DNA of 64,000 bases, from assembly GCA_016794925.1 (NCBI GenBank), contig JAEUIW010000001.1:248001-312000 (forward strand), in the 5' to 3' direction. Under the pieces are notes generated by a model that was not told the DNA's origin, did no database searches, and worked only from the letters and a program-made list of their open reading frames with translations. Below, piece by piece: positions 3-15,073 of this stretch; position 1 is the stretch's first letter; every line of letters begins with the position of its first letter. Made by a program: the position numbers and the translations under genes. The DNA is from Phycisphaerae bacterium. GTDB lineage: Bacteria > Planctomycetota > Phycisphaerae > Phycisphaerales > UBA1924.

Positions 3-3000
3 GCCCTCGCCGCCGACGGTTCAGTGACAAACGTACTGATCGAATACGCGTCGGGCGCAACAAACGGTAACGGAGATCCTCGCGTGCGCCGCGTCGCCGT
101 CAATCCGGATCCGGGCTTTGTTGCGCGATCGATCGCGGCTCAGCGGCGAGCGGATCCGATTGCGGTCCCGGTGATTTCGGATCCCCCGGGGCCCGTGGAC
201 ACCGAGACGATCAGCCCGCTCTTCGCCCAGCTCGCGTACACGCAGTCCGCGCTCGACAGCGGTCTGATCGAAGCGCTGCTCCGGCAGCACGTGGTGGAAA
301 CGTCCGCCGATCCCGCGGCCGCTGCGGCGTCGCCCGCGATGGCCAGTCTTTCGTCGCTCCTCGGATCGCACGTCAATCAGACCTCCGGCATTGGGCGAGC
401 GACCGCGGATTTCCGCGGCGGCCTGCTCTCCGGTCACCCCGCGCTGGCGCCCGGGCAGAGCCTGGCTGGCGGCACGTTCCTCTATCTTGCTACCGAAGAC
501 CTGACCAGTCCGACGTTCGTGGTGCCGATGATCGAACGGAACCTCGCGGGCGACCGACGGTCCATCTCGCCCCTGCTTTCCGTGAACGACGATATTGATT
601 TCAGCGGGATCGCATTCCGACCCGGTACCGCCGGCGCGGAGTTGCTCCGACTCGACTCGGCGGCATCCGCATCGAGCATTCGGAGTCGCGGCACGGGCGT
701 TCCCGGCTCTCCGTTCGTGCAACTGGATTCGTATTCGCAAGGCGGGCTGCGCGGGCTTGGCACGCTCGGCTCGCGTGCGTTCACGCAGGCCGGCGGCGCA
801 GGCGCCTTTGGGCTGTCCGAGTTGCTCGTGCAGCCCGGTGTCGTGACACCCCGGATCAGTCTCACCGGTCAATTCCGTTCGGCGGCTTCGGGGCTGGCCG
901 GTGCCAATGAGCGTGGGACGTTGTTCACGCTCGGCGGCGTGGGAACGCACCTGACCACGCTGTTCGATCGATTCCTGCTTGAGGTGGACCCCCGCAACAA
1001 CTCGATCGTGCGGGTGATCCCATTCTCCATCGACTCCGGCACGTTGATCCAGCCCGGCGGCTTCCCGGTTGCCGATCTCACGGAAGCGAGTGGCCTGGCG
1101 TTCGTCGACGGACGCCTCGTTGTCGGCGCGGTCAGCCCGGACAACGTGCGCGCTGCGTTCATCACGTTCGACCCCGATGCCGCGCCGGGCACGCGGATGC
1201 TCCGGATCGACGGCGCACCTGCCGGGCTGCGTCTTTCGGATTTTGCGGGCGAGACCAACGCGGCACCCCCCGCCTCAGCGGCGCTCGACAACCCTCCGGG
1301 CCAGATCGACACAACGACCATCGATCCTCTGTTTGCCCTGTTGGGCTACTCACCGCAAGCGGCCCAAACCACGTTTCTCAACGACCTGGTGCGGGCGCAC
1401 CTCGTGGTGACGTCGCGGGACCCCGCGCTGTGCGCCGTGAGCTCCAGCCTTTCGCAAGTACCGCCGCTGTTGCTCACGCACGCATCTCAGGTCGGGGGTG
1501 TCGGACGCACGATTGGCGACTTCCGCGGCTCCCTTCTCGAAGGCCATCCGTGCCTTGCGCCCGGGCAGCAGGGGCAGTTGGCCGCGTACTTCATCCTCGC
1601 GCCGGCATTTGGGAACAGCTCCGACGCCGTTCCCACCGTGTTGCGCGCGTACTCCGGGCAGGGCGCGTTCGAAGCGCGGGGCACGTTCCTCTCGCCGAAT
1701 CTCTTGGGCGCCGGCTCCGAGCCGAAGCAGTACACGGACGCCGCACTGTTCTTCAATCCGCAATCCAGCCGACGTGAGCTGCTCGCGCTGACCGTTCTGA
1801 TCTCCGGTGGGAGCCGAATCTACCCGCTCGGGCTCGACTCGCCGGGGCAGGGTTTCGGATCGCCGATCAATTTCGGACCGACGAGCGGCCTGACATCCAT
1901 CGGTTCGCTGGGAACGAGGGTCTACGTCAATGGTCTCGCGGGCGGGTTGGGGGATGCACTCTCCGAGTCGTTCCTTGGGATTTCCGAGGCCGACCTGACC
2001 GTCGGCAAGGTCCGGCCAAGGGTCTCTCTCGGTGCCAGCGCCCAATTCACCAGCGCCCTTTCCGGTTGGAACGAGCGCGGCACGCTCGTGCTTCCAATCA
2101 GCCCGCGTCTCAACGGCGGGACACTTGACTTGGACGGGGCGATCGTCGAGATCGACCCGAGGAACCGTCTGATCGTCTCAGCCCAGAGCGGCCTCTTCGC
2201 CGATTTCGCCACCGGCGCCAACACCGTCTTCGTTCCTCCCTCGTACCGGTTTGATTCCATCAACGACGTGACCGGCATCGTGCCGCTTGCTGATGGCCGA
2301 CTCGTGTTCACCGCAACGACCCATCCGGCCGGGGGAGGTGACGGGGAGGAGGCGTTCGTACGCTTCACTTTCAACCCCAATGTCGCGAGCGGTCTCTCGA
2401 AGTTTGAGCGGGTCGAAGTGATCTCCGATCCGGCATTGATCGTCAGCGACATCGCGGGCGAATCGCTCGCGACGCCGCCGCAGCCCGTCGCGCTCGCGCC
2501 GCCCGCCACGCCAAGCGAGACGTTCGTGAACTTCGGTCAGGGCAAGGTCCGCGACCCCGCGTTCCTCTCCGACAGCGCCTATCTCGACAGTGCCCGGGTT
2601 CGGTCCGTGGTAACGGATCTCATTGTCACGCAGGTGCTTCAGCACGCGGACGATCTGTCGGCCTGCTTCGCCAGCGGCGAGCTGGCGACGATCCCCGGGT
2701 ACGTCGCTTCGCATCCGCTCCAGCAAGGCGGGGTTGGCCAGGCGACGGGGGACTTCTACCGCCGGCTCCCGTCGCGGCATCCGTGCCGGCCCAACCTCAG
2801 CGCCGCCGATTTTGTCACCATCGACGGGGTCTCGACGCCCAGCCTTGCGTTCGTCGACAGCTCGTACGCCGTGACGCTCGGACCGGCGGTTACGGGCCTG
2901 AACCCCAGCCTCATCGACGATCACGCGCTGATCTCGGATCCCGCCGGCGATGCGCTCACGATGTTGACGGTCGAGAATCAGTCGGACGGTTCCGGAGGCG

Positions 3001-3956
3001 CCTTCGCCACGATCAAGCAGGCGGACCTGCTCGCCTCTCCGAGCCCGAACTTTGCAACCGTGGCGTTCATCCAAGTCCCCGGCAACGGCGGTCGCGGGAT
3101 CTACGGCCTCGCCACGATTGGGAATCAGGTGTTTGGCGCGACCGACGTGGACTTCCAGAATCTGTATTCGGAAATCAACCGCGTCGACATCGCCTCAGGG
3201 GGCACGCTCACGCCCGTGGTCGGGCTCCCGATGCGGCTCGATGCAGGGTTGATCGGTTCGAACGAACGCGGCACGCTCTTCGCCGTCGGGGTGGCCTCGA
3301 ATTCTGCGGAGGGTGCTCCGCAGACGAACCTCCTCAGCAACGCGGTGCTCATTGAAATTGATCCGCGAAACAACCTCCTGATCAACGGTCGTTCCGCCGC
3401 GCAGTCGGAACTGGCCGCGACCGTGGACACCGACAATCCCTCGCAGATCAGCACGGGCCTGCTCGGCCAGATCTCCGCCGTTGGATACGTGCGCGGCAAC
3501 GTGGTGCTGTCGGGCGAGCCGGGGGGTGGAACCCCCGTGCTCGTGGAAGTCTCGATGGAAGCCACGGGTAATCCGGGTGATCCAAAGGTGGTTTCGATCT
3601 ATTCCAGCTCGGGCGTGAACCAACGCGGCGGGGCCTCCGAGCGCCCCATCAGGCCGCTCGCGCCGATCAGCATCCCCAATCCGCCGGGGACGATCGACAC
3701 CCGGGGGCTGAACGCCACGTTTGCGCAGATGGCGTACACCCAGCGAGCCTTTGATTCGGGCGTGCCCACCCAACTCATCCGTTCAGCGATCATCACCGCC
3801 GCGCGCGATCCGGTCGGTTGTTCCCAAAGCAGCGAGCTCTTTGGAGTTCTTCCAGCCAACGTGCAGACGCACATCAACAAGGTCGCCGGGGTTGGTCGGG
3901 CAGTCAGTGATTTTCGACAGTCGATCCCCCCCGGGCACCCCTGCCAACCGAACTGA
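3..3956 (+). CDS. Very large secreted-type protein built of alternating repeats (5' end outside window)
   Basis: The reading frame is open from the first complete codon, so the gene starts upstream of the window; the GTG at 24 is only the first in-frame start-like codon. The visible 1,310 residues hold four copies of a roughly 90-residue, probably helical module (about residues 55-145, 425-515, 832-920 and 1219-1310). Each contains a pattern like GVGRxxxDFR and most end in GHPC. Between them lie stretches of about 280-310 residues that look beta-rich and repeat the motifs NERGTL and EIDPRNN, as in beta-propeller-like extracellular proteins. The protein ends on the fourth helical module. No catalytic motif is recognised. 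I infer an exported or surface protein from composition and repeat style; the signal peptide would lie upstream. A function cannot be named. Confidence 0.8.
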   Translation, partial: ALAADGSVTNVLIEYASGATNGNGDPRVRRVAVNPDPGFVARSIAAQRRADPIAVPVISDPPGPVDTETISPLFAQLAYTQSALDSGLIEALLRQHVVETSADPAAAAASPAMASLSSLLGSHVNQTSGIGRATADFRGGLLSGHPALAPGQSLAGGTFLYLATEDLTSPTFVVPMIERNLAGDRRSISPLLSVNDDIDFSGIAFRPGTAGAELLRLDSAASASSIRSRGTGVPGSPFVQLDSYSQGGLRGLGTLGSRAFTQAGGAGAFGLSELLVQPGVVTPRISLTGQFRSAASGLAGANERGTLFTLGGVGTHLTTLFDRFLLEVDPRNNSIVRVIPFSIDSGTLIQPGGFPVADLTEASGLAFVDGRLVVGAVSPDNVRAAFITFDPDAAPGTRMLRIDGAPAGLRLSDFAGETNAAPPASAALDNPPGQIDTTTIDPLFALLGYSPQAAQTTFLNDLVRAHLVVTSRDPALCAVSSSLSQVPPLLLTHASQVGGVGRTIGDFRGSLLEGHPCLAPGQQGQLAAYFILAPAFGNSSDAVPTVLRAYSGQGAFEARGTFLSPNLLGAGSEPKQYTDAALFFNPQSSRRELLALTVLISGGSRIYPLGLDSPGQGFGSPINFGPTSGLTSIGSLGTRVYVNGLAGGLGDALSESFLGISEADLTVGKVRPRVSLGASAQFTSALSGWNERGTLVLPISPRLNGGTLDLDGAIVEIDPRNRLIVSAQSGLFADFATGANTVFVPPSYRFDSINDVTGIVPLADGRLVFTATTHPAGGGDGEEAFVRFTFNPNVASGLSKFERVEVISDPALIVSDIAGESLATPPQPVALAPPATPSETFVNFGQGKVRDPAFLSDSAYLDSARVRSVVTDLIVTQVLQHADDLSACFASGELATIPGYVASHPLQQGGVGQATGDFYRRLPSRHPCRPNLSAADFVTIDGVSTPSLAFVDSSYAVTLGPAVTGLNPSLIDDHALISDPAGDALTMLTVENQSDGSGGAFATIKQADLLASPSPNFATVAFIQVPGNGGRGIYGLATIGNQVFGATDVDFQNLYSEINRVDIASGGTLTPVVGLPMRLDAGLIGSNERGTLFAVGVASNSAEGAPQTNLLSNAVLIEIDPRNNLLINGRSAAQSELAATVDTDNPSQISTGLLGQISAVGYVRGNVVLSGEPGGGTPVLVEVSMEATGNPGDPKVVSIYSSSGVNQRGGASERPIRPLAPISIPNPPGTIDTRGLNATFAQMAYTQRAFDSGVPTQLIRSAIITAARDPVGCSQSSELFGVLPANVQTHINKVAGVGRAVSDFRQSIPPGHPCQPN

Positions 3957-5592: not shown

Positions 5593-8535
5593 TCAGAATC
5601 CCCCGAACGGGGAGCGCGGCAGCTTCACGTACGGCATCCGCACCGGCTCGGGCCGCGTCGGCAGTTCCAGTTCGTCCGACCTTCGGACCGACGCGAGTTG
5701 CTGGAAGCCCTCGGCGCCCGCCAGCGCGACGAAATCATCCTGATCGACACCGTCGCCGGAAACACCGATCGCTCCCACGAGCACGCCGTTCTCGTAGAGC
5801 GGCACCGCGCCGGGGAAGATCTGCAGCCCGTTAGCCAATCCCAGCGACGCGGCCGCGACCCCGCCCCCGCCGATCATGTCTCCATCGAACATCCGCAGGG
5901 CCTGCCCCTCGTCGCCGACGGCCGCGAACGTGCTTAGGAATGAGACGAGATTCGTGACCAGCAGCTCCGTCTGAAGACCGTTCGAGAACACGCTGAACCC
6001 GCTCGCGGTTGCCGGGCCGAACGGCCCCGGGAGCGAGTTGCGGATGCCATCGGGCAGCGTCGGTCGCGAGAGGAACCCGATCGCACGTTCGGACAGCGCC
6101 ACCGAACCGTCCAGTTTCACCCCCAGCACACGCGCGGCATCCACCCGGAACGCGAACGCTCCCGACTCCGCGGCGGCGAGCAAGGCGCCCGCGTCCCCGC
6201 GGCTGAGCAGCGCTGCGCTCCGCGCCTTCTGCACCGATACGTCCAGCCCGAACACCGGCGCGTCGTCCGAACGCAGCACGCCGAGCAAGCTCCCCTTGGC
6301 GTCGACGACCGAGACGGTGACGCGCGACACCCGTGGGCGATCGTTCCGGATCGCCGCGCGGAGCCGCTGATTGAGCGCCTGCGCCCGCTCCAGAATGCCC
6401 GACACCTCGCCCTCCGAGAGACTCTCGCCCCCCTCTGCCGCCCCCGCACGAGTGGAGAGCGACCCGTCCGAGTTCACGAACTGCGCCAGCGTGTTCCCAA
6501 CCACGCGCCCCACCGAGACCGAACGGAACATGCTCGCCGGTGCGCTGATCGGTTCCACGAACGTGCGCACCAGTCCGGCGGACTGCAGGTCGGCCAACGT
6601 CGGAAGCGGCAGGAGATCACCCGGCGGCGGGGGTTCGGAATTCGCATAGTCCAGCCGGACGCCCCCGACCAAGATGTTGTCCGCGCGAATCTCGCGGGGA
6701 GGCTCGAACCCCGCCTGGGCGGCGAGCGCGATCAGTTCCTCCGCCGTCGGATCTCCGCCGACCCCGGTCCGATCGATGCCGTAGACCCCGTCCAGCTCGA
6801 CCCCGATTCCTCCCACGGCCCGACCATCGAGGTAGAGCGGCACGCCGCCCGGATCAGCCGACAGGCCCAGCGGAAGGCGATTCACGTCGCTGGTGGGCAG
6901 CTGGCTGAATTGCACCCCAAAGAGAGGCCCGGAGGACTGATTGTCCACGCCCACCGGGAAATTGGGTTGGATGATGAAGCCGGCCGTGCGGGTGGTGAAC
7001 GCGTTGCCACTGGTGGAAAGAAACGCGGCGGTACCGGCCTTGCTTGTCGCCGTGAGCGAGGAGGGCACGGTGACCCCCTCGAGCCCGCTCGTCCCGCCGC
7101 CCGAGATCCGTGCGGTTCCGGGATCAGCGGTCAGCGCGGGATCGGTCATCCGCACGGCGCCCAGGATGGTCCCCTCCCGATCCACGACCGACAGCGTCGC
7201 GTTCACGCCCAGCGATCGCGCGCGGGAGATCGCCCGATCGAGCACCAGCCGCACGTCATCGGCGCGCAGACCGCCGCCCGGAGCGCCCGGTGCGGATTCG
7301 AGAAGTTTGGTCGCCCGAGCGAAGGGCACTCGTTCCAGTAGGGTGTTGCTCGCGTCCGCGCGCAGCCGATCGATCGATTTGATCGTCTTCGCCGCGACCA
7401 GTTGCAGCCGCTTGGCCGCGGCTTCCCCCGCTGTTGACGCCGCGCCGGCAAGATTGAATGCGCCGATGTCGCCATCGACGCGGGCCCGCAGATCGTCGAC
7501 ATCAGCGGCCTCAACACCCCCGAAATCGCCGGCGATGCTGGCTTCCACGTTCCGAATCGTCCCGCCCGACCCGTCTTCTCGCGTGACGCGGATCAGTCCC
7601 ACTCGACCACCCACCTGCAGCGCGCCGTCGAGCAGGCTACCGGCAATCACCTGGATCGACTCCACCGCCCCGCCCACGCCCGCGACGAACCGCTTGACGT
7701 CCCCCCGCGAGGAGAGCGAGTCGAACGAGCCGTCCACGTTCAGCCGCAGGCCGGAAGCGCCGCCGTCGAATCGGAGCAGGCCCAGTTTCCCGGCCGAGAG
7801 CGTCAATGCCGCCACGGAAGATCCGAACACCACCGAGGTGATCACGCTTCGCGCCGCGATTTCTGATTCCTTTGACGGCCCCGTCACGCGCAGGCTGCCG
7901 AACGAACCAGCGGCGAGCAGCGACCGTTCCAATCGCCCTGGCGCGGTCAACGAGCCGAGTGCCCCAAGAACGCCAATCTGAAGACCGCTCACATCCCCCT
8001 TCAGGTCCAGCGTGCCCAGGTCCCCCCCCCCGAACAGGCCGACCCGGTTCCGTTCGTCGGAACGGATCGTTGAAATCGTTACCGCTGGACCCGCTCCTTT
8101 GAACGCCGCGACTGCCAAGTCGGCGCCGTTCTCGAATCGACCGATCGTTCCCTTCTCCAGCGATGCGAGCAGGATTCCGGGTCCGTCAACCGAGACCGCA
8201 TCCATCCGGAGTCCCCCCAATTCGCCGCCGGTGACGAACGCGACTCGAGTTGACCGACTCAGGGCGGGGCGAACCGCCAAGCTGCTCGACCCATCTGTTC
8301 CCGTCAGGTCGATCTGGTGAATGTCGCTCCCCGTGGTCCCGCCACGTCGAAGGGTAACCCGACCGGTTCCGGGCCCCTCCAGCTCAACTACCACCGGCGT
8401 TCCCTCGGAGTCTTGAAATCGGAACGGACGGGCTTGGTCGAACGAGATCCCATCGAGCAGAACCCGAGGTTCGAGCGCGAGGATCGTGGCCGACGATTCG
8501 TCATGGCGCGAAAGGCCCGGGCGAGATGGGTGCAT
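5593..8535 (-). CDS. LEPR-motif secreted protein with two GlcG/HbpS-like domains
   Basis: About 980 residues. The N-terminus carries LEPRVLLDG (about residues 21-29), a motif known from the N-termini of many large planctomycete proteins and thought to be linked to export or surface placement. Residues about 50-420 are low-complexity, beta-rich and Gly/Ser/Asp-rich. Two separated regions then resemble the GlcG/HbpS (DUF336, PF03928) fold: about 420-630 and 705-950. Each has an SVVDxxGxxLGxxR strand and a GxxPLYxxGxxVGxIGV segment. Family members bind haem or small ligands, but no haem ligand can be assigned here. ATG at 8535 with GGAG six bases upstream is preferred over a TTG at 8580. It is divergent from the cytochrome-conduit genes. 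Confidence 0.75.
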   Translation of the reverse strand: MHPSRPGLSRHDESSATILALEPRVLLDGISFDQARPFRFQDSEGTPVVVELEGPGTGRVTLRRGGTTGSDIHQIDLTGTDGSSSLAVRPALSRSTRVAFVTGGELGGLRMDAVSVDGPGILLASLEKGTIGRFENGADLAVAAFKGAGPAVTISTIRSDERNRVGLFGGGDLGTLDLKGDVSGLQIGVLGALGSLTAPGRLERSLLAAGSFGSLRVTGPSKESEIAARSVITSVVFGSSVAALTLSAGKLGLLRFDGGASGLRLNVDGSFDSLSSRGDVKRFVAGVGGAVESIQVIAGSLLDGALQVGGRVGLIRVTREDGSGGTIRNVEASIAGDFGGVEAADVDDLRARVDGDIGAFNLAGAASTAGEAAAKRLQLVAAKTIKSIDRLRADASNTLLERVPFARATKLLESAPGAPGGGLRADDVRLVLDRAISRARSLGVNATLSVVDREGTILGAVRMTDPALTADPGTARISGGGTSGLEGVTVPSSLTATSKAGTAAFLSTSGNAFTTRTAGFIIQPNFPVGVDNQSSGPLFGVQFSQLPTSDVNRLPLGLSADPGGVPLYLDGRAVGGIGVELDGVYGIDRTGVGGDPTAEELIALAAQAGFEPPREIRADNILVGGVRLDYANSEPPPPGDLLPLPTLADLQSAGLVRTFVEPISAPASMFRSVSVGRVVGNTLAQFVNSDGSLSTRAGAAEGGESLSEGEVSGILERAQALNQRLRAAIRNDRPRVSRVTVSVVDAKGSLLGVLRSDDAPVFGLDVSVQKARSAALLSRGDAGALLAAAESGAFAFRVDAARVLGVKLDGSVALSERAIGFLSRPTLPDGIRNSLPGPFGPATASGFSVFSNGLQTELLVTNLVSFLSTFAAVGDEGQALRMFDGDMIGGGGVAAASLGLANGLQIFPGAVPLYENGVLVGAIGVSGDGVDQDDFVALAGAEGFQQLASVRRSDELELPTRPEPVRMPYVKLPRSPFGGF

Positions 8536-8859
8536 GTGTGGCTCCGGACGCGGGAAACTCGGATCGGTGCCGCCGCGCAACCAGACTGGTCCGCGTGTGA
8601 ACTGCCGTGAAAGGCCTTACTCGTTCAGGAGAGTCCCGGCCGATGTATGGTCGTGCATATCGGCGCCGCTGTCCAGCGGGATTTCAAGCACGCCCCGGCG
8701 GGACAAGCCGTTCCAGGGTATTTCGAACGATTCCAACACTCACGAAACGGGAACACAGGCACGATGCCCTTGCCGGAGTTGACAGACCGGCCCGTTTCGG
8801 GTTACCTGTGCGAACGTGTGACTTTTGCAAACCGCTCGAATTCGGATCGTGCGCCGCGC
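8536..8859. other. Divergent intergenic region before the cytochrome conduit
   Basis: This 324-bp stretch separates the leftward LEPR-motif gene from the rightward barrel-cytochrome pair and should hold promoters for both. A perfect TTGACA is at 8779-8784, but the hexamer 17 bases downstream (TTACCT, 8802-8807) is a poor -10, so a sigma-70 promoter is only a possibility. The barrel-protein frame is also open leftwards to 8647. I regard that part as non-coding because a signal-peptide-like start occurs at 8860. No operator or riboswitch fold was recognised. Confidence 0.4.
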
Positions 8860-10797
8860 ATGAGAGTTCTCGGCGTCGCGGCACGCCTATTCCTTTCTGG
8901 TGGGTCACTCGCAAGCTGGTCGCAACTGGCTTCCGGCGTGCTGTTCTCAACAGCTGAGCCACCCGCTTTAGCGGAACCGAATCAGTCCGAACCGGACTCC
9001 ACAGCCGGGCTCGATAGGGCGAACAAGCCCGTCGGGACGAGCACCACGCTCGCTGCGCCACCCGACGAAAGCGAACGGCGTGTGAGGCTCCGCGTCCGGC
9101 CTTCGGATGCCAAGGCGCCCGGCGGCCCCACGGACACGCTCGGGTTTGCCGGGGACTCTCCGCTAGCACTTCCCCGCCAACTGGTCTTCCGCGACACCCT
9201 GGCGGTCCCGGACCGATGGCGTATCGGCTGGCCCGCTTGGGACCGGTACGGTCGCCAGGCCCCGTGCGATCCCGTCGTGATGAACAACTCGGGCGGGGAT
9301 TCTCCGTACACCCTCGGCTCCCCGTGGAATCCGTACGACCGGAACGTTCTCAAGGGCGACTATCCGGTCATTGGCGAGGATGTTTTTGTGAACCTCTCGG
9401 CCACCAGCGACACCCTGGTCGCCTATCGCAAGTCCCCCGTGCCGCAGGGCGTCTCCACGCGCGATCCCGGTGATTTTTCCTTCTTCGGAGACGGTCGCCA
9501 GTTGCTAGTCAACCAGAGTGTGTTTCTCGGCATCGATCTTTTTCAGGGTTACACGGCGTACCGGCCCGTCGATTGGTTGATCCGCGTCGTCCCGGCGTTC
9601 AATCTCAACTACGCACGGCTGCGCGAGCACAACGCCATCAACGCGGATGTACGCAAGGGAGACGAACGCACCGACGAGTTCGCGACCCTGCAGGAGGTGT
9701 TCGGTGAATTGCACCTCGGCGACACGAGCCCGGAGTTCGACATCGCGGCGGTCCGCGTCGGACGCCAGCTCTTCGTCTCGGATTTTCGTGGGTTCATCTA
9801 CAACGACGTGTCGGACGGCGCGCGGATCTTCGGCAACCTCGCCAGCAACCGCGTGCAGTATTCGCTCGCCCTTTTCAATCAGGTTGAGAAGGACACCAAT
9901 TCCGGCCTCAACGAGTTCAACTGGCGCGACCAGCAGGTGCTCATCGCCAATGCGTATGTCCAGGATCTGTTCTGGATGGGCCACACGACCCAACTCTCGT
10001 TCCACTGGAACCACGATCAGTCGGATTCGCGTTACAACAAGAACGGTGTGCTCGTCCGCCCGCCCCTGGCGGGCTCGGTGAGCCTTCAGGACATCGATGC
10101 GTATTACCTCGGCTGGGCCGGAGACGGCCACATCGGCCGGGTGAACGTCGATCACGCGCTCTACCACGTCTTCGGCACGGACGGGCACAACCCCATCGCC
10201 GGCCGCGACGTCGGCATCTCCGCGTTTCTCGGCGCCGTCGAGCTCTCGTACGACATCGACTGGCTGCGGCCCAAGGTCTCCTTCCTCTACGCCTCGGGTG
10301 ACGGTCGCGGTGGTGACGGCAAGGGGCGCGGATTCGACGGCATCCTCGACAACCCGTCCTTCGCCGGTGGACCGTCCAGTTTCTACAACGGCGGGATCGG
10401 GCTCATGGGCGTCAATCTCACCAACCCCGGGTCGTTCTTCAACACGCTCAATTCCTCCAAGGGCGAGGGGCAGGCCAACTTCGTGAACCCCGGGACCGTG
10501 CTCTTCAACGCGGGGCTCGACACGGAGCTGACTCCCAAGCTCCGGGCCTCGATCAACTACAATTACCTGCTCTTCGCCGACACCGGTTCACTGGAGTATT
10601 TCCTCAATCAGAGCGGCATCAGCGACGAGATCGGCAGCGAACTGAATTTCACCGCACAGTGGCGGCCCTTCCTGAACAACAACATCATCGTCACCGGCGG
10701 AGCTTCCGTCTTCTTCCCCGGCAAGGGCTTCCGTCGCGTGTACGACAGCAACGACACGCTGTACCAGTTCTTCTCCGGCGTCACGCTGACCTATTAG
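8860..10797 (+). CDS. Outer-membrane beta-barrel protein, partner of the multihaem cytochrome
   Basis: About 645 residues from the ATG at 8860, which gives a signal-peptide-like N-terminus (RVLGVAARLFLSGG... with a small-residue cleavage area near residue 30). An upstream in-frame ATG at 8647 would bury this signal. After an Asp/Pro-rich linker, the C-terminal 400 residues alternate hydrophobic and polar residues in many short strands separated by Gly/Asn/Asp turns. The chain ends in VTLTY, with the aromatic last residue typical of barrels inserted by the BAM machinery. The next gene, 22 bp downstream, encodes a ten-haem lipoprotein, so I infer a porin sheath or partner for transmembrane electron transfer. 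Family membership (MtrB/PioB or another porin family) cannot be settled by eye. Confidence 0.75.
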   Translation: MRVLGVAARLFLSGGSLASWSQLASGVLFSTAEPPALAEPNQSEPDSTAGLDRANKPVGTSTTLAAPPDESERRVRLRVRPSDAKAPGGPTDTLGFAGDSPLALPRQLVFRDTLAVPDRWRIGWPAWDRYGRQAPCDPVVMNNSGGDSPYTLGSPWNPYDRNVLKGDYPVIGEDVFVNLSATSDTLVAYRKSPVPQGVSTRDPGDFSFFGDGRQLLVNQSVFLGIDLFQGYTAYRPVDWLIRVVPAFNLNYARLREHNAINADVRKGDERTDEFATLQEVFGELHLGDTSPEFDIAAVRVGRQLFVSDFRGFIYNDVSDGARIFGNLASNRVQYSLALFNQVEKDTNSGLNEFNWRDQQVLIANAYVQDLFWMGHTTQLSFHWNHDQSDSRYNKNGVLVRPPLAGSVSLQDIDAYYLGWAGDGHIGRVNVDHALYHVFGTDGHNPIAGRDVGISAFLGAVELSYDIDWLRPKVSFLYASGDGRGGDGKGRGFDGILDNPSFAGGPSSFYNGGIGLMGVNLTNPGSFFNTLNSSKGEGQANFVNPGTVLFNAGLDTELTPKLRASINYNYLLFADTGSLEYFLNQSGISDEIGSELNFTAQWRPFLNNNIIVTGGASVFFPGKGFRRVYDSNDTLYQFFSGVTLTY

Positions 10798-10819
10798 CCG
10801 ACCGGACGGAGTCCCCGCA

Positions 10820-13800
10820 ATGCCGATCGCCGCTCGCAGCCGGCTCCTCATCACCGTACTCGCCGCCGCGTCGCTCGCCGCCGCGTGGTCCTGCGAGCAC
10901 GAGCACTACTGGCGCGGCGGCCGTCCGCGGGCGGTCGCCAACAACTCCGTCCCCGAACCACCCGCCGATCCCCTCACCTCCAGTCATGAACTCTCCGCCA
11001 AGCTCGCCTCGATGGCCCCGCCGGCCCCCGCTCCGGGGGAACAGACCATCGAGCAATCCCTGGCCCGCAGCGCCGGGTGTATGTCGTGCCACGGCAAGAC
11101 GGATGACCCCGACATGCACGGCGGTTCCGACGTTGCCGTCGGGTGCATCGACTGCCACGGCGGCAACGGCGCGGTGCGGTCGCCACGGGGCGAGCCGGGC
11201 CGCCCCGGCAGACCCGGCACACCCATCGAGGACGCGGCCTATCTGGCGGCGATGCGCGCCGCGCACGTGCTCCCGCTCAATCCGGTCGCGTGGTACGGGC
11301 GGGGCGTGCAGCTCATCGACGGCCGCTCATTCGGCGAACACGTCGAGGCCGACCCCGAGCGGCTGCACGGCTCGCGGAACCCGGAGATCACCTACGCCCT
11401 GCTCAACCAGGAGTCGCCCGAGTTTGTGCGGTTCATCAACCCCGGCGACCTGCGCATCGCCGATCTCGCCTGCGGATCGTGCCACATGGAGGAGGTTGTC
11501 AAGGTCCGCTCGTCGATGATGACGCACGGTGCGCAGCTGTGGGGGGCTGCGCTCTACAACAACGGTTCCTATCCAAGCAAGACCCCGCGGTTCGGCGAGT
11601 CATACGACCTTCTGGGCGGGCCCCAGCGCCTGCAGGGAGTGACCGAGAAATTCGACGAGAAATCGCTCGAGTACAGCGTCCGCAACCCGACCGACGCCGA
11701 AATCGCCAAGGAAGGCGTCCTCCCCTTCCTCGATCCGCTCCCGGTTTGGAACATCACCCAGCCGGGCAATATTCTCCGCGTCTTTGAGCGCGGCCAGCGC
11801 TCGCCTCTGCCCGGCGGCAACGCCTTCAACGAGATCGCCAACCCCAACCCCGGCGTTGAGCCCGGCAAGCCCGACAAGAACCTCTCCGTTCGGGGGCTGG
11901 GCACGGGCCTGCGCGTCGACCCCGTTTTCATCGGGCTCCAGAAAACGCGTCTTCTCGACCCGATCTTGTCGTTCCTTGGCACCAACGACCATCCCGGCGA
12001 TTTTCGTTCCTCCGGCTGCACCGCCTGTCACGTCGTCTACGCCAACGACCGTGACCCCGCGCACTCCGGCGCCGCGTACGCCAAGTACGGCAATCTCGGC
12101 CGCTCGATCTCGGACGATCCCACGCTGCCCAGGGACGAGCCCGGTCACCCGCTGCGTCACGTCATGACCTCCGGGATCCCCAATTCCAACTGCATCGTCT
12201 GCCACATCCACCCTGGCACCTTGTACGCGAACACCTACCTCGGGTACATGTGGTGGGACAACGAGTCCGATGCCGAGTTCTTCTTCCCCGACCGATCCCA
12301 CCGCCCCACGGCCGATCAGGAGTGGCGGAGTCAGCGTCACAACCCCGAGGCTTCCTCGATGAAGGGCCTCTGGGGGAATCTCTATCCCGATGCCGTCTCG
12401 CACGCGGGCGAAGTCTCCGGGCCGGACTTCCTGGAGCGCTCGGGCGCGCCCCGCACCGGAAGGCCCGCCGCCGATCCCGCCGCCGCGATCAACGACAGGG
12501 CGCGCCACAATCAGTTCTCCGACTTTCACGGGCACGGCTGGATCTTCCGTGCGGTATTCAAGAAGGACCGTGCCGGCAACCTCCTGACGGGGGACGGGTC
12601 CCGGATCGACCCCGACGACCCTTCCAAGTTCGACAAGGCCGTCCATCTCAAGGACATCCACCTCGAGCGCGGCATGCACTGCGTGGACTGCCATTTCAAG
12701 CAGGACGTCCACGGCACCGGGAAGCTCTACGGGGAGGCGCGCAACGCCATCGAGATCACCTGCACCGATTGCCACGGCACCTACACCGCGTACGCCACGC
12801 TCAAGACCAGCGGGCCCGCGGCGCAGGGGGGCGGCCGTGACCTCGGAAAGGACACGGTCGGTGCCGGCGAGAACGTGAAGAAGCGCTTCGCGTGGAAGGA
12901 CACCGAGTCCGGCCGCGTGCTCGTCCAACGCTCCGCCCTCGATCCCGAAGTCGAGTGGGCGGTCGTTCAGACGCTCGACACGATCAACCCGGATTCGGGC
13001 TGGGCCCGGGCGCATCCCGACTCCGCCCGGCAGTCGCGCTACGCCAAGACGGTGCGTCGATCCCGCACCGCCTCCGGCGGGCTGGCGTGGGGAGACCTCC
13101 CCGCCGGACCCGCGGCCGCGGCCGACCTCGCGCACGCCGAATCCGACATGCAGTGCTACACCTGCCACACTTCGTGGATGACCTCGTGCTTCGGCTGCCA
13201 TCTGCCCATGAAGGCCAACCAGCGCACGCCCATGCTCCACAACGAGAGCGTGTACACCCGCAACTACACGCAGTACAACTACCAGGTGCTCCGCGACGAC
13301 GTGTACATGCTCGGGCGCGACTCGACCGTCAAGGGTGCCAAGATCGTTCCCGTTCGCTCCTCTTCCGCCGTTCTCGTGTCCAGCCAGAACGCCGCCCGCG
13401 AGTGGATCTACCACCAGCAGCAGACCGTTTCGGCGGAAGGCTACTCCGGCCAGACCTTCAACCCGCATTTCCCGCACGCCGTGAGCGGACCCGGCACCAC
13501 CAAGAACTGCACCGATTGTCACCTCTCACCCGCGAACGACAACAACGCCTGGATGGCGCAGCTCCTGCTCCAGGGCACCAACTTCGTCAATTTCTTCGGC
13601 CGGTACGCCTACGTCGCCGAGGGCGCCGCGGGCCTCGAGGCCGTCGCCGTCACCGAGCACGACGAGCCCCAGGCCGTGTACGGCTCGCGTCTCCACGAGC
13701 TGGCCTACCCCGATGAAGCCGCGCGTTTCGTCGCTTCCGGACGACGCCTCGAGGAAGCCCACCACCACGACGCCGGCGCCTTCTTCGAGGGCAACGAGAT

Positions 13801-15073
13801 CCTCGACCTCCAGCTCCGGGGCGAGTACCTCTACGCGGCCCGCGGCAAAGGGGGGTTTCACATCTACGACGTCGCCAACATCGATAACAAGGGCTACTCC
13901 GAGCGCATCGTCTCATCCCCCGTCTCACCGCTCGGACAGAACCTCGGCTTCGACACGTCGTACGCGGTCGCCGTCGCCAGCCCCTCGACTCTGGCCGTTG
14001 ATCCGGCGCGCACGCGTCTGAGCACCGACCCCTCCAAGCCCCGCGCCATCATGCTCGACCCTCCCCAGCCCTGGCACGCGAACCAGGAGCAGGCGATCCA
14101 CCCGTTGTACGCCTATCTGTACATCGCCGATCGCGACGAGGGCCTCATCCTTACGTTCGTCGCCACCCTCCTCGACGGCGATCCCACCAACAACTTCCTG
14201 GAGCGTGCCGTGCTCGCCGACGGCTCGACCGCCTTCAACCCCAAGGGCCTGCTCGCCGGCATGTCCCATCTCGCGCTCGCCGGTCATCACCTCTACGCCA
14301 CCAGCGCCTCCGGCCTGACCGTCATCGATATCGACACACCCACCGATCCCAAGGTCGTCGCCCACATCGGCACCGACTTCTTCTCCAGCCCTCGCGCCGT
14401 CGCGATCCAGTTCCGCTACGCGTTCGTCACCGACGCCGAGGGCCTCAAGGTGCTCGACGTCACCAACCCCGCGGCGCCCAGGCCGCTCCCCGACGCCACG
14501 CTCCGCATCCCCGACGCCGGTCGCGTCTACGTCGCCCGCACCTACGCCTTCGTCGCGGCGGGCCCGAGCGGCCTTGTGATCTGCGACGCCACCAATCCCG
14601 AGAAGCCCGCCATCCTCCGCGCCCTGGGCAAGGAGGTCGGGCTGACCGATTGTCGCGACGTCAAGGTCGGCATGACCAACGCTTCGCTATACGCGTACGT
14701 CGCCGACGGCGACGCCGGCCTCAAGGTGCTGCAGCTCATGGGGCCCGATTCCACTCCGCAGTTCCGGGGCTTCGCGCCCCCCCTCCAGCCGCGCCTCATC
14801 GCCTCGTACCGGACGCACGGCCCGGCGCTCGCCATCTCCAAGGCCCTCGACCGAGATCGCGCCGTAGACGAATCCGGGCACCAGATCGCCGTCTTCGGAC
14901 GTCTCGGCGCCCGTCCCCTCAATCTCGCCGAGCAGCAGCGGCTCTACCTCCGCAACGGCGTGCCCTGGACCGCGCCCGACACCCCCAACCCCGCCGACGC
15001 CTCGCCCTTCACCTTCAAGGTCGCGGAACCCAAGAAGGAAGAGGGCGGCCGACGCCGAGGCCGGGGCGACTGA
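10820..15073 (+). CDS. Decahaem c-type cytochrome lipoprotein with C-terminal LVIVD beta-propeller
   Basis: 1,417 residues. A short signal ends in a lipobox-like AAAWSC with Cys25, so it is probably lipid-anchored. Ten CxxCH haem c motifs are visible, with first cysteines at about 87, 109, 218, 400, 458, 621, 648, 779, 790 and 897. No CxxCH occurs after residue 901. From about 925 to 1390 there are repeats of the type YxYVADGDAGLKVLxL and GLxVxDxxxPxxP, matching LVIVD-repeat propellers. Distal His and Met/His side chains for bis-His ligation are plentiful. The barrel-protein gene lies 22 bp upstream, indicating co-transcription. I infer a cell-surface or periplasm-facing electron-transfer protein; the electron donor and acceptor are unknown. 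Haem assembly genes are not in the window. Confidence 0.9.
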   Translation: MPIAARSRLLITVLAAASLAAAWSCEHEHYWRGGRPRAVANNSVPEPPADPLTSSHELSAKLASMAPPAPAPGEQTIEQSLARSAGCMSCHGKTDDPDMHGGSDVAVGCIDCHGGNGAVRSPRGEPGRPGRPGTPIEDAAYLAAMRAAHVLPLNPVAWYGRGVQLIDGRSFGEHVEADPERLHGSRNPEITYALLNQESPEFVRFINPGDLRIADLACGSCHMEEVVKVRSSMMTHGAQLWGAALYNNGSYPSKTPRFGESYDLLGGPQRLQGVTEKFDEKSLEYSVRNPTDAEIAKEGVLPFLDPLPVWNITQPGNILRVFERGQRSPLPGGNAFNEIANPNPGVEPGKPDKNLSVRGLGTGLRVDPVFIGLQKTRLLDPILSFLGTNDHPGDFRSSGCTACHVVYANDRDPAHSGAAYAKYGNLGRSISDDPTLPRDEPGHPLRHVMTSGIPNSNCIVCHIHPGTLYANTYLGYMWWDNESDAEFFFPDRSHRPTADQEWRSQRHNPEASSMKGLWGNLYPDAVSHAGEVSGPDFLERSGAPRTGRPAADPAAAINDRARHNQFSDFHGHGWIFRAVFKKDRAGNLLTGDGSRIDPDDPSKFDKAVHLKDIHLERGMHCVDCHFKQDVHGTGKLYGEARNAIEITCTDCHGTYTAYATLKTSGPAAQGGGRDLGKDTVGAGENVKKRFAWKDTESGRVLVQRSALDPEVEWAVVQTLDTINPDSGWARAHPDSARQSRYAKTVRRSRTASGGLAWGDLPAGPAAAADLAHAESDMQCYTCHTSWMTSCFGCHLPMKANQRTPMLHNESVYTRNYTQYNYQVLRDDVYMLGRDSTVKGAKIVPVRSSSAVLVSSQNAAREWIYHQQQTVSAEGYSGQTFNPHFPHAVSGPGTTKNCTDCHLSPANDNNAWMAQLLLQGTNFVNFFGRYAYVAEGAAGLEAVAVTEHDEPQAVYGSRLHELAYPDEAARFVASGRRLEEAHHHDAGAFFEGNEILDLQLRGEYLYAARGKGGFHIYDVANIDNKGYSERIVSSPVSPLGQNLGFDTSYAVAVASPSTLAVDPARTRLSTDPSKPRAIMLDPPQPWHANQEQAIHPLYAYLYIADRDEGLILTFVATLLDGDPTNNFLERAVLADGSTAFNPKGLLAGMSHLALAGHHLYATSASGLTVIDIDTPTDPKVVAHIGTDFFSSPRAVAIQFRYAFVTDAEGLKVLDVTNPAAPRPLPDATLRIPDAGRVYVARTYAFVAAGPSGLVICDATNPEKPAILRALGKEVGLTDCRDVKVGMTNASLYAYVADGDAGLKVLQLMGPDSTPQFRGFAPPLQPRLIASYRTHGPALAISKALDRDRAVDESGHQIAVFGRLGARPLNLAEQQRLYLRNGVPWTAPDTPNPADASPFTFKVAEPKKEEGGRRRGRGD

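Follow-up and report, generated by a model that had tools for sequence, protein, structure and literature searches.

A barrel and decahaem cytochrome gene pair in a planctomycete genome

The window analysed here, 64 000 nt of DNA from a Phycisphaerae bacterium (GenBank assembly GCA_016794925.1, contig JAEUIW010000001.1, positions 248,001 to 312,000), contains two adjacent genes on one strand: one for a predicted outer-membrane β-barrel protein and one for a decahaem c-type cytochrome (Table 1). The 22 bp between the barrel stop and the cytochrome start (10798–10819) hold a possible ribosome site, GGACGGAG. A preliminary description, made from the letters of the window, had pointed to a barrel-like protein with an aromatic C-terminus, to a 1417-residue cytochrome with ten CxxCH motifs 22 bp downstream and to a planctomycete host. 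Both open reading frames (ORFs) are as described, the first ending in ...FFSGVTLTY and being modelled as a barrel, and the nearest named relatives are metagenome-assembled genomes of Phycisphaerales. The window genome (G000) is a draft of 344 contigs and is 95% complete.

Table 1. Features of the window discussed in the text, with the pair listed before its neighbours
Feature	Position (nt)	Strand	Basis
Predicted outer-membrane β-barrel protein	8860..10797	+	AlphaFold2 18-strand model; AlgE/OprD-type structural matches; profile strong in 39/392 phylum genomes
Conserved pre-barrel stretch of the barrel protein (PDRWRIGW...NPYDRNVLKGDYPI...SDT)	9208..9414	+	Conservation across 45 sequences, Sphingobium among them
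Decahaem c-type cytochrome with C-terminal LVIVD repeats, 1417 aa	10820..15073	+	Ten CxxCH; Pfam LVIVD; homologues
Candidate lipidated Cys (AAWSC; ACEHxxxWRGG in relatives)	10892..10894	+	Alignment of eight orthologues
Ten-haem region, residues 87–901	11078..13522	+	CxxCH positions, alignment
LVIVD-repeat (propeller-type) domain, ∼residues 1150–1340	14267..14839	+	Pfam PF08309; LVIVD-type matches in relatives
PetH/BoxA-like ferredoxin–NADP reductase (FNR), 305 aa	4151..5068	+	NCBIfam PetH 208.6 bits, BoxA 165.5
Two-cluster [4Fe-4S] ferredoxin, 87 aa	5256..5519	+	62% identical to L031 module ferredoxin
Divergent HbpS-like (haem-binding/degrading family) protein, start uncertain	5593..8580	−	Pfam PF03928 75.6 bits, cut-off 25

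Conservation of the pair

Conservation was examined in a sample of 392 Planctomycetota genomes. Strong barrel matches were found in 39 of them, and the cytochrome (presence being scored at better than 1e-100) was found in the identical 39 (Fisher p ∼1e-54, a value that overstates independence, the genomes being related). Among 36 cytochrome homologues from two phyla, each of the ten haem motifs is intact wherever a sequence covers it. Because of these intact motifs and the exceptionless co-occurrence, the pairing exceeds chance. The barrel gene stands directly ahead of the cytochrome gene at 34 of the 39 loci (32 of the 37 tabulated, plus L074 and L075), and non-conservation of the pair in relatives, a possibility raised in the preliminary description, is excluded.

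Within the same family, four other genomes have close cytochrome orthologues (65–68% identity), and the barrel gene is directly upstream in three of them, namely those with long enough contigs. The gene order HbpS-like (divergent), barrel, decahaem cytochrome was seen in eight named loci, with one contig stopping before the HbpS-like gene. At three loci (L090, L096 and L097) the barrel and HbpS-like genes are found together and the cytochrome gene is on a different contig; in two of these cases the separate cytochrome gene is ∼5 kb from the inner-membrane gene. Trees of the barrel and of the cytochrome have 23 of 32 splits in common, which would fit a long association of the two proteins.

The barrel protein

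The barrel candidate has 645 residues, and its reading frame extends open upstream as far as an ATG at 8647. It matched no Pfam family at E ≤ 1, and a PDB sequence search with either protein of the pair gave no meaningful match. An AlphaFold2 model built from nine sequences (∼60% identical) has 18 strands by our count, in residues 168–644, and is of moderate quality (mean predicted local distance difference test score, pLDDT, 52; predicted template modelling score, pTM, 0.54); a closed barrel, as first proposed, is therefore modelled at moderate confidence. The top Foldseek matches were to AlgE (E 2e-14), and realignment to AlgE and OprD-type porins gave Z scores of 20–22. The modelled fold is thus that of the 18-strand AlgE/OprD-type porins, at just ∼10–13% identity. 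The Pfam family Alginate_exp, to which AlgE belongs, had no match in the window barrel; L032 was the sole relative matching it, with 22.8 bits against a cut-off of 25.2.

By simple geometry the backbone radius would be 16–17 Å with 18 strands and 23–25 Å with 26, the strand count of MtrB; a decahaem domain of ∼800 residues would probably not fit within the modelled 18-strand barrel. A conduit is still compatible with so few strands, because ExtB of Geobacter is also predicted to have 18 membrane strands (PMC6148476). The stretch preceding the barrel, NPYDRNVLKGDYPI, ranks among the most conserved parts of the protein and is modelled at low confidence; N162, K165, G166, D167, P169 and F176 are each kept in at least 93% of the 45 sequences. 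There are no CxxCH motifs on the barrel chain.

Two loci have unusual barrel genes. The protein encoded at L111:9393-11855 (G471:C13) has four N-terminal CxxCH motifs in a haem domain of the quinohaemoprotein amine dehydrogenase type (Pfam, 54.9 bits); the domain joined to it matches the profile of the barrel with 132–137 bits, and the protein is a possible natural cytochrome–porin fusion distinct from Cyc2. In L082 (G365:C24) a stop breaks the barrel gene into two ORFs and the cytochrome gene is ∼7.6 kb off, as in a decaying or misassembled copy.

The decahaem cytochrome

The CxxCH motifs of the cytochrome are at residues 87, 109, 218, 400, 458, 621, 648, 779, 790 and 897, a spacing of ∼82 residues per haem. 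Pattern counting gave nine haems at some loci, at odds with the alignment, and this is probably a trimming or counting artefact. Since 12 further His residues are at least 90% conserved across the 36 homologues, all ten haems could have two-His ligation. The LVIVD repeats match Pfam with 60.5 bits (cut-off 20.2), along with short cytochrome c3/c7 matches. A PF08309 search across the protein's own genome found nothing despite this match, the repeats probably being too short for a genome search. Similarity to NCBIfam ExtM (NF040943) is local to the haem motifs (75.7 bits, cut-off 800), and the DmsE-family decahaem model scored 15 bits against a cut-off of 192.

The lipobox-like signal proposed at the outset stood in part: the Cys of 'AAWSCEH' is kept as ACEHxxxWRGG in close relatives with complete N-termini, making the cytochrome a predicted lipoprotein in Phycisphaerales, and it is absent in the Sphingobium homologue described below.

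Cytochromes of ∼1100 aa with 11 haems, LVIVD repeats and dockerin-like C-termini occur in six other genomes (L025–L030, from G131, G118, G001, G036, G093 and G030). They were considered as members of the same system and rejected, being 26–27% identical with no adjoining barrel gene; by similarity they are placed in a wider family around the decahaem LVIVD cytochrome.

Inner-membrane and periplasmic genes

The preliminary description dealt with the pair and saw no Mtr-, Omc- or Cyc2-like neighbour. The pair is not isolated: its flanks hold genes for FNR, ferredoxin and an HbpS-like protein, and the same genome encodes an inner module of membrane protein and periplasmic cytochromes with PCC3/PCC4-type motifs. 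In both L031 and L032 a contiguous set joins the pair to genes for FNR, ferredoxin, a hexahaem and a tetrahaem cytochrome, a membrane protein, a protein with cyclic nucleotide monophosphate (cNMP)-binding domains and Fe-S clusters, and a c554-like cytochrome; the inner module is contiguous with the pair at several further loci. The window keeps just FNR, ferredoxin and the HbpS-like gene from the rest of the module, and the five other genes (hexahaem, tetrahaem, membrane, cNMP/Fe-S and c554-like) are on contig C222 of the window genome. A cytochrome c assembly gene was also found.

The window FNR is 69% identical to that of the contiguous module in L031, its PetH score falling under the cut-off of 600; the ferredoxin orthologue in L032 has Pfam Fer4 matches. 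The HbpS-like protein is probably exported. Its gene is beside the barrel gene in 27 of the 39 planctomycete loci, and several complete flanks lack it.

The membrane protein, of a kind with two b haems, has strong matches in 25 of the 392 genomes, 23 of them among the 39 barrel genomes and two among the other 353. All 13 membrane proteins compared have two WX3HX13H motifs; nine have SGxxG at the expected site and the remaining four TGxxG. A PF13247 Fe-S gene adjoins the membrane-protein gene in L038, L031, L032 and L114 (43.9 bits in L114, over the cut-off; 20.9 in L032, under it).

In the cNMP protein, two cyclic-nucleotide-binding domains are combined with four [4Fe-4S] clusters. All 14 sequences compared keep the nucleotide pocket (GE...R..T type) of the first of these domains, and the cluster cysteines are conserved wherever the sequence is complete. 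Depending on lineage it is paired or fused with one of three NAD(P)H-type modules: FNR plus ferredoxin, a Pyr_redox flavoprotein fusion or an Nqo3/Fer2-type fusion. The third kind of electron-entry module is seen at L096:15110-17821 (G413), where the cNMP/Fe-S protein is fused to Nqo3/2Fe-2S-type domains.

An enlarged module is present at L107 (G160:C21:34000-53900), where ORFs with 18 and 15 haem motifs, the latter beginning with an FHA-like stretch, stand beside the cNMP, membrane, barrel and decahaem genes. The window genome has a further locus, L039 (G000:C311), with a molybdopterin oxidoreductase, a four-cluster ferredoxin, an NrfD-type membrane subunit and two four-haem ORFs.

Occurrence on Sphingobium plasmids and a neighbouring cyclase

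Occurrence beyond Planctomycetota was examined in plasmids, where tblastn detected the barrel on 13 plasmids of Sphingobium and Sphingopyxis (36–40% identity). Sphingobium is aerobic and heterotrophic. The order on S. herbicidovorans pMSHV is c554-like, HbpS-like, barrel, decahaem, a CpdA-like phosphodiesterase, a 10-haem cytochrome, membrane protein and a flavoprotein–cNMP–Fe-S fusion, with a CHASE2 adenylate/guanylate cyclase gene upstream of the module. The plasmid and window-genome module proteins are homologous, from the decahaem cytochrome (44% over 1384 aa) to the membrane protein, the weakest homologue (E 2e-6); the plasmid HbpS-like gene, which precedes the barrel gene, encodes a protein with 39% identity to that of the window.

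In the window genome a CHASE2 cyclase, one of three PF00211 genes, is ∼12 kb upstream of the barrel gene, and cyclase genes are ∼2 kb from the module in G151 and ∼10 kb in G319; four of the seven genomes checked have no cyclase close to it. This proximity is suggestive only, because the check began with two of its three positives already known, and gating by cyclic AMP (cAMP) is therefore proposed as a hypothesis. Tentatively, cAMP (or cGMP) made by the cyclase might bind the twin cNMP domains of the electron-entry protein and turn electron transfer to the outside on or off with no need for transcription.

At the edge of the window (195-3956, with its upstream continuation at L034:7493-13957) there is an exoprotein-like ORF of 2154 aa with no Pfam match; upstream of it, outside the window, are a CHASE2 cyclase and an Alginate_exp barrel. 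A link to two-partner secretion, hinted at by the Sphingobium neighbours, was dropped, because BLAST gave no match between the 2154-aa exoprotein and that of Sphingobium.

Comparison with known systems

The bare barrel–decahaem pair is not new, because a metagenome study of ghost rock (PMC13264449, 2026) lists the same two features, often with FNR. In that report, an unnamed porin–cytochrome (PCC) 'group 1' has a large decahaem cytochrome (gene of 4–5 kb) adjoining a ∼20-strand porin, with FNR nearby in 7 of 11, and Planctomycetota are among the PCC carriers. The window pair is alike by description, being a 4254-bp ten-haem gene 22 bp from a barrel modelled with 18 strands, with FNR nearby; group 1 is described there by size and count, and the section consulted makes no mention of LVIVD, HbpS, a cNMP protein or an inner module.

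PCC4 (He et al. 2017, PMC5566968) comprises a porin, cytochromes with 4, 5 and 10 haems, a PF13247 Fe-S protein and a membrane protein carrying WX3HX13H twice together with SGxxG; in its subgroup II, which lists Planctomycetes, the Fe-S gene adjoins the membrane-protein gene. Our system likewise has a porin, decahaem and tetrahaem cytochromes, a PF13247 protein and a membrane protein with these motifs. The haem counts differ (3/4, 4 + 6 or a fused 10, and 10 in the window-genome system versus 4, 5 and 10), and no HbpS is mentioned for PCC4. Likened by their descriptions, PCC4 and group 1 both probably touch the window-genome system.

MtrCAB, MtoAB and PioAB likewise combine an outer-membrane barrel with a decahaem cytochrome. 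The window barrel has no MtrB_PioB Pfam match and 18 modelled strands, and the haem spacing is far from the ∼33 residues per haem of MtrA (quoted in PMC5566968). The original statement that the two proteins are unlike MtrA and MtrB was therefore upheld by sequence, haem spacing and apparent barrel size; the further suggestion of a distinct conduit class holds as far as MtrAB is concerned and is tempered by the like or related systems already described in PMC13264449 and PMC5566968. Cyc2 fuses cytochrome and porin, unlike the window barrel with its lack of CxxCH. The Geobacter Ext/Omb conduits (extABCD, extHIJKL...) also have a barrel with cytochromes and share local ExtM-like haem stretches, with no family-level match. 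Verrucomicrobia clusters (PMC5615132), from bacteria of the same Planctomycetes–Verrucomicrobia–Chlamydiae group, have a porin adjoining a multihaem cytochrome; they are set apart by description, with eight-haem periplasmic cytochromes and porins of at least 20 predicted strands. In open-licence full-text literature we found nothing joining LVIVD, HbpS or cyclic-nucleotide domains to porin–cytochrome conduits, and the full module, the HbpS partner and the nucleotide-binding entry protein appear undescribed. Taken on its sequences, this is a real, conserved multi-gene system of the porin–cytochrome kind.

Proposed electron path and alternatives

It is fairly likely, in our view, that a system transferring electrons across the whole cell envelope has the barrel and the decahaem cytochrome at its outer-membrane end. 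We infer a chain in which electrons would enter from NADPH through FNR and ferredoxin to the four [4Fe-4S] clusters of the cytoplasmic cNMP protein, pass to the two b haems of the five-helix-type membrane protein, and then move through the periplasmic tetrahaem, hexahaem and c554-like cytochromes to the decahaem cytochrome. The lipid on this last cytochrome, together with the 18-strand barrel, would keep it at the outer membrane. Docking at a barrel mouth is expected, because a cytochrome of this size probably cannot be housed in so narrow a barrel in the way that MtrB houses MtrA. The LVIVD domain would meet an extracellular partner, and the HbpS-like protein may be an exported accessory (haem or redox).

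Several observations weigh against such a path. The membrane-protein match is weak or absent at E 1e-50 in 16 of the 39 barrel genomes; the Sphingobium cytochrome has no lipobox Cys; the structure prediction for the haem region (seven sequences) had a pLDDT of 31 and was discarded; common descent alone may explain the shared tree splits; and no Mtr/Omc-type terminal reductase was identified. The modelled resemblance to AlgE and OprD also means that the barrel could be a plain solute channel. It would then admit or release a small molecule (oxyanion, aromatic or soluble shuttle), the decahaem protein would be a periplasmic or membrane-bound reductase for it, and electrons would never cross the outer membrane, an arrangement paralleled by that proposed for ExtI of Geobacter, an outer-membrane porin linked to selenite and tellurite (PMC5877670). 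Such a channel would agree with the top structural matches, which are substrate channels, with the ExtM-like stretches and with the missing Sphingobium lipobox; it is the main alternative, and we rate it as rather unlikely, given that the ExtM score is far below its cut-off and confined to haem motifs, that a lipoprotein is predicted in Phycisphaerales and that two proteins found together without exception appear more tightly linked than a general channel would require.

For the trans-envelope path itself, outward flow is favoured: the pyridine-nucleotide modules on the cytoplasmic side fit it more easily, because Fe(II) and Mn(II) cannot reduce NADP directly, and the aerobic, heterotrophic life of Sphingobium points the same way. 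The opposite, in which the decahaem cytochrome oxidises an extracellular donor (Fe(II), Mn(II) or another cell) as He et al. (2017) proposed for PCC4, is improbable on these grounds, even with PCC3/PCC4 motifs on the membrane protein and PCC4 drawn as an oxidation route (PMC5566968). Least probable, and by our estimate very much so, is a haem acquisition or haem-stress system in which the HbpS-like protein and the barrel would deal with haem, the cytochromes serving as sensors or reductants. The frequent HbpS-like partner, and the three loci pairing it with the barrel while the cytochrome is elsewhere, would suit that role; several multihaem proteins, cluster proteins and FNR would be excessive for haem uptake, the Pfam scan of the barrel gave no TonB-type domain, and HbpS is missing from the complete flanks mentioned above.

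If the trans-envelope path is correct, many planctomycete families would have a type of conduit with a barrel fold class, a cytochrome and a signal-binding electron-entry protein of its own, and the range of organisms exchanging electrons with minerals or other cells would be widened. The same system would be carried on conjugative plasmids of aerobic Sphingomonadaceae, for which cultured hosts are available for testing. Should the proposed gating also be true, a second messenger would control electron export at the protein level.

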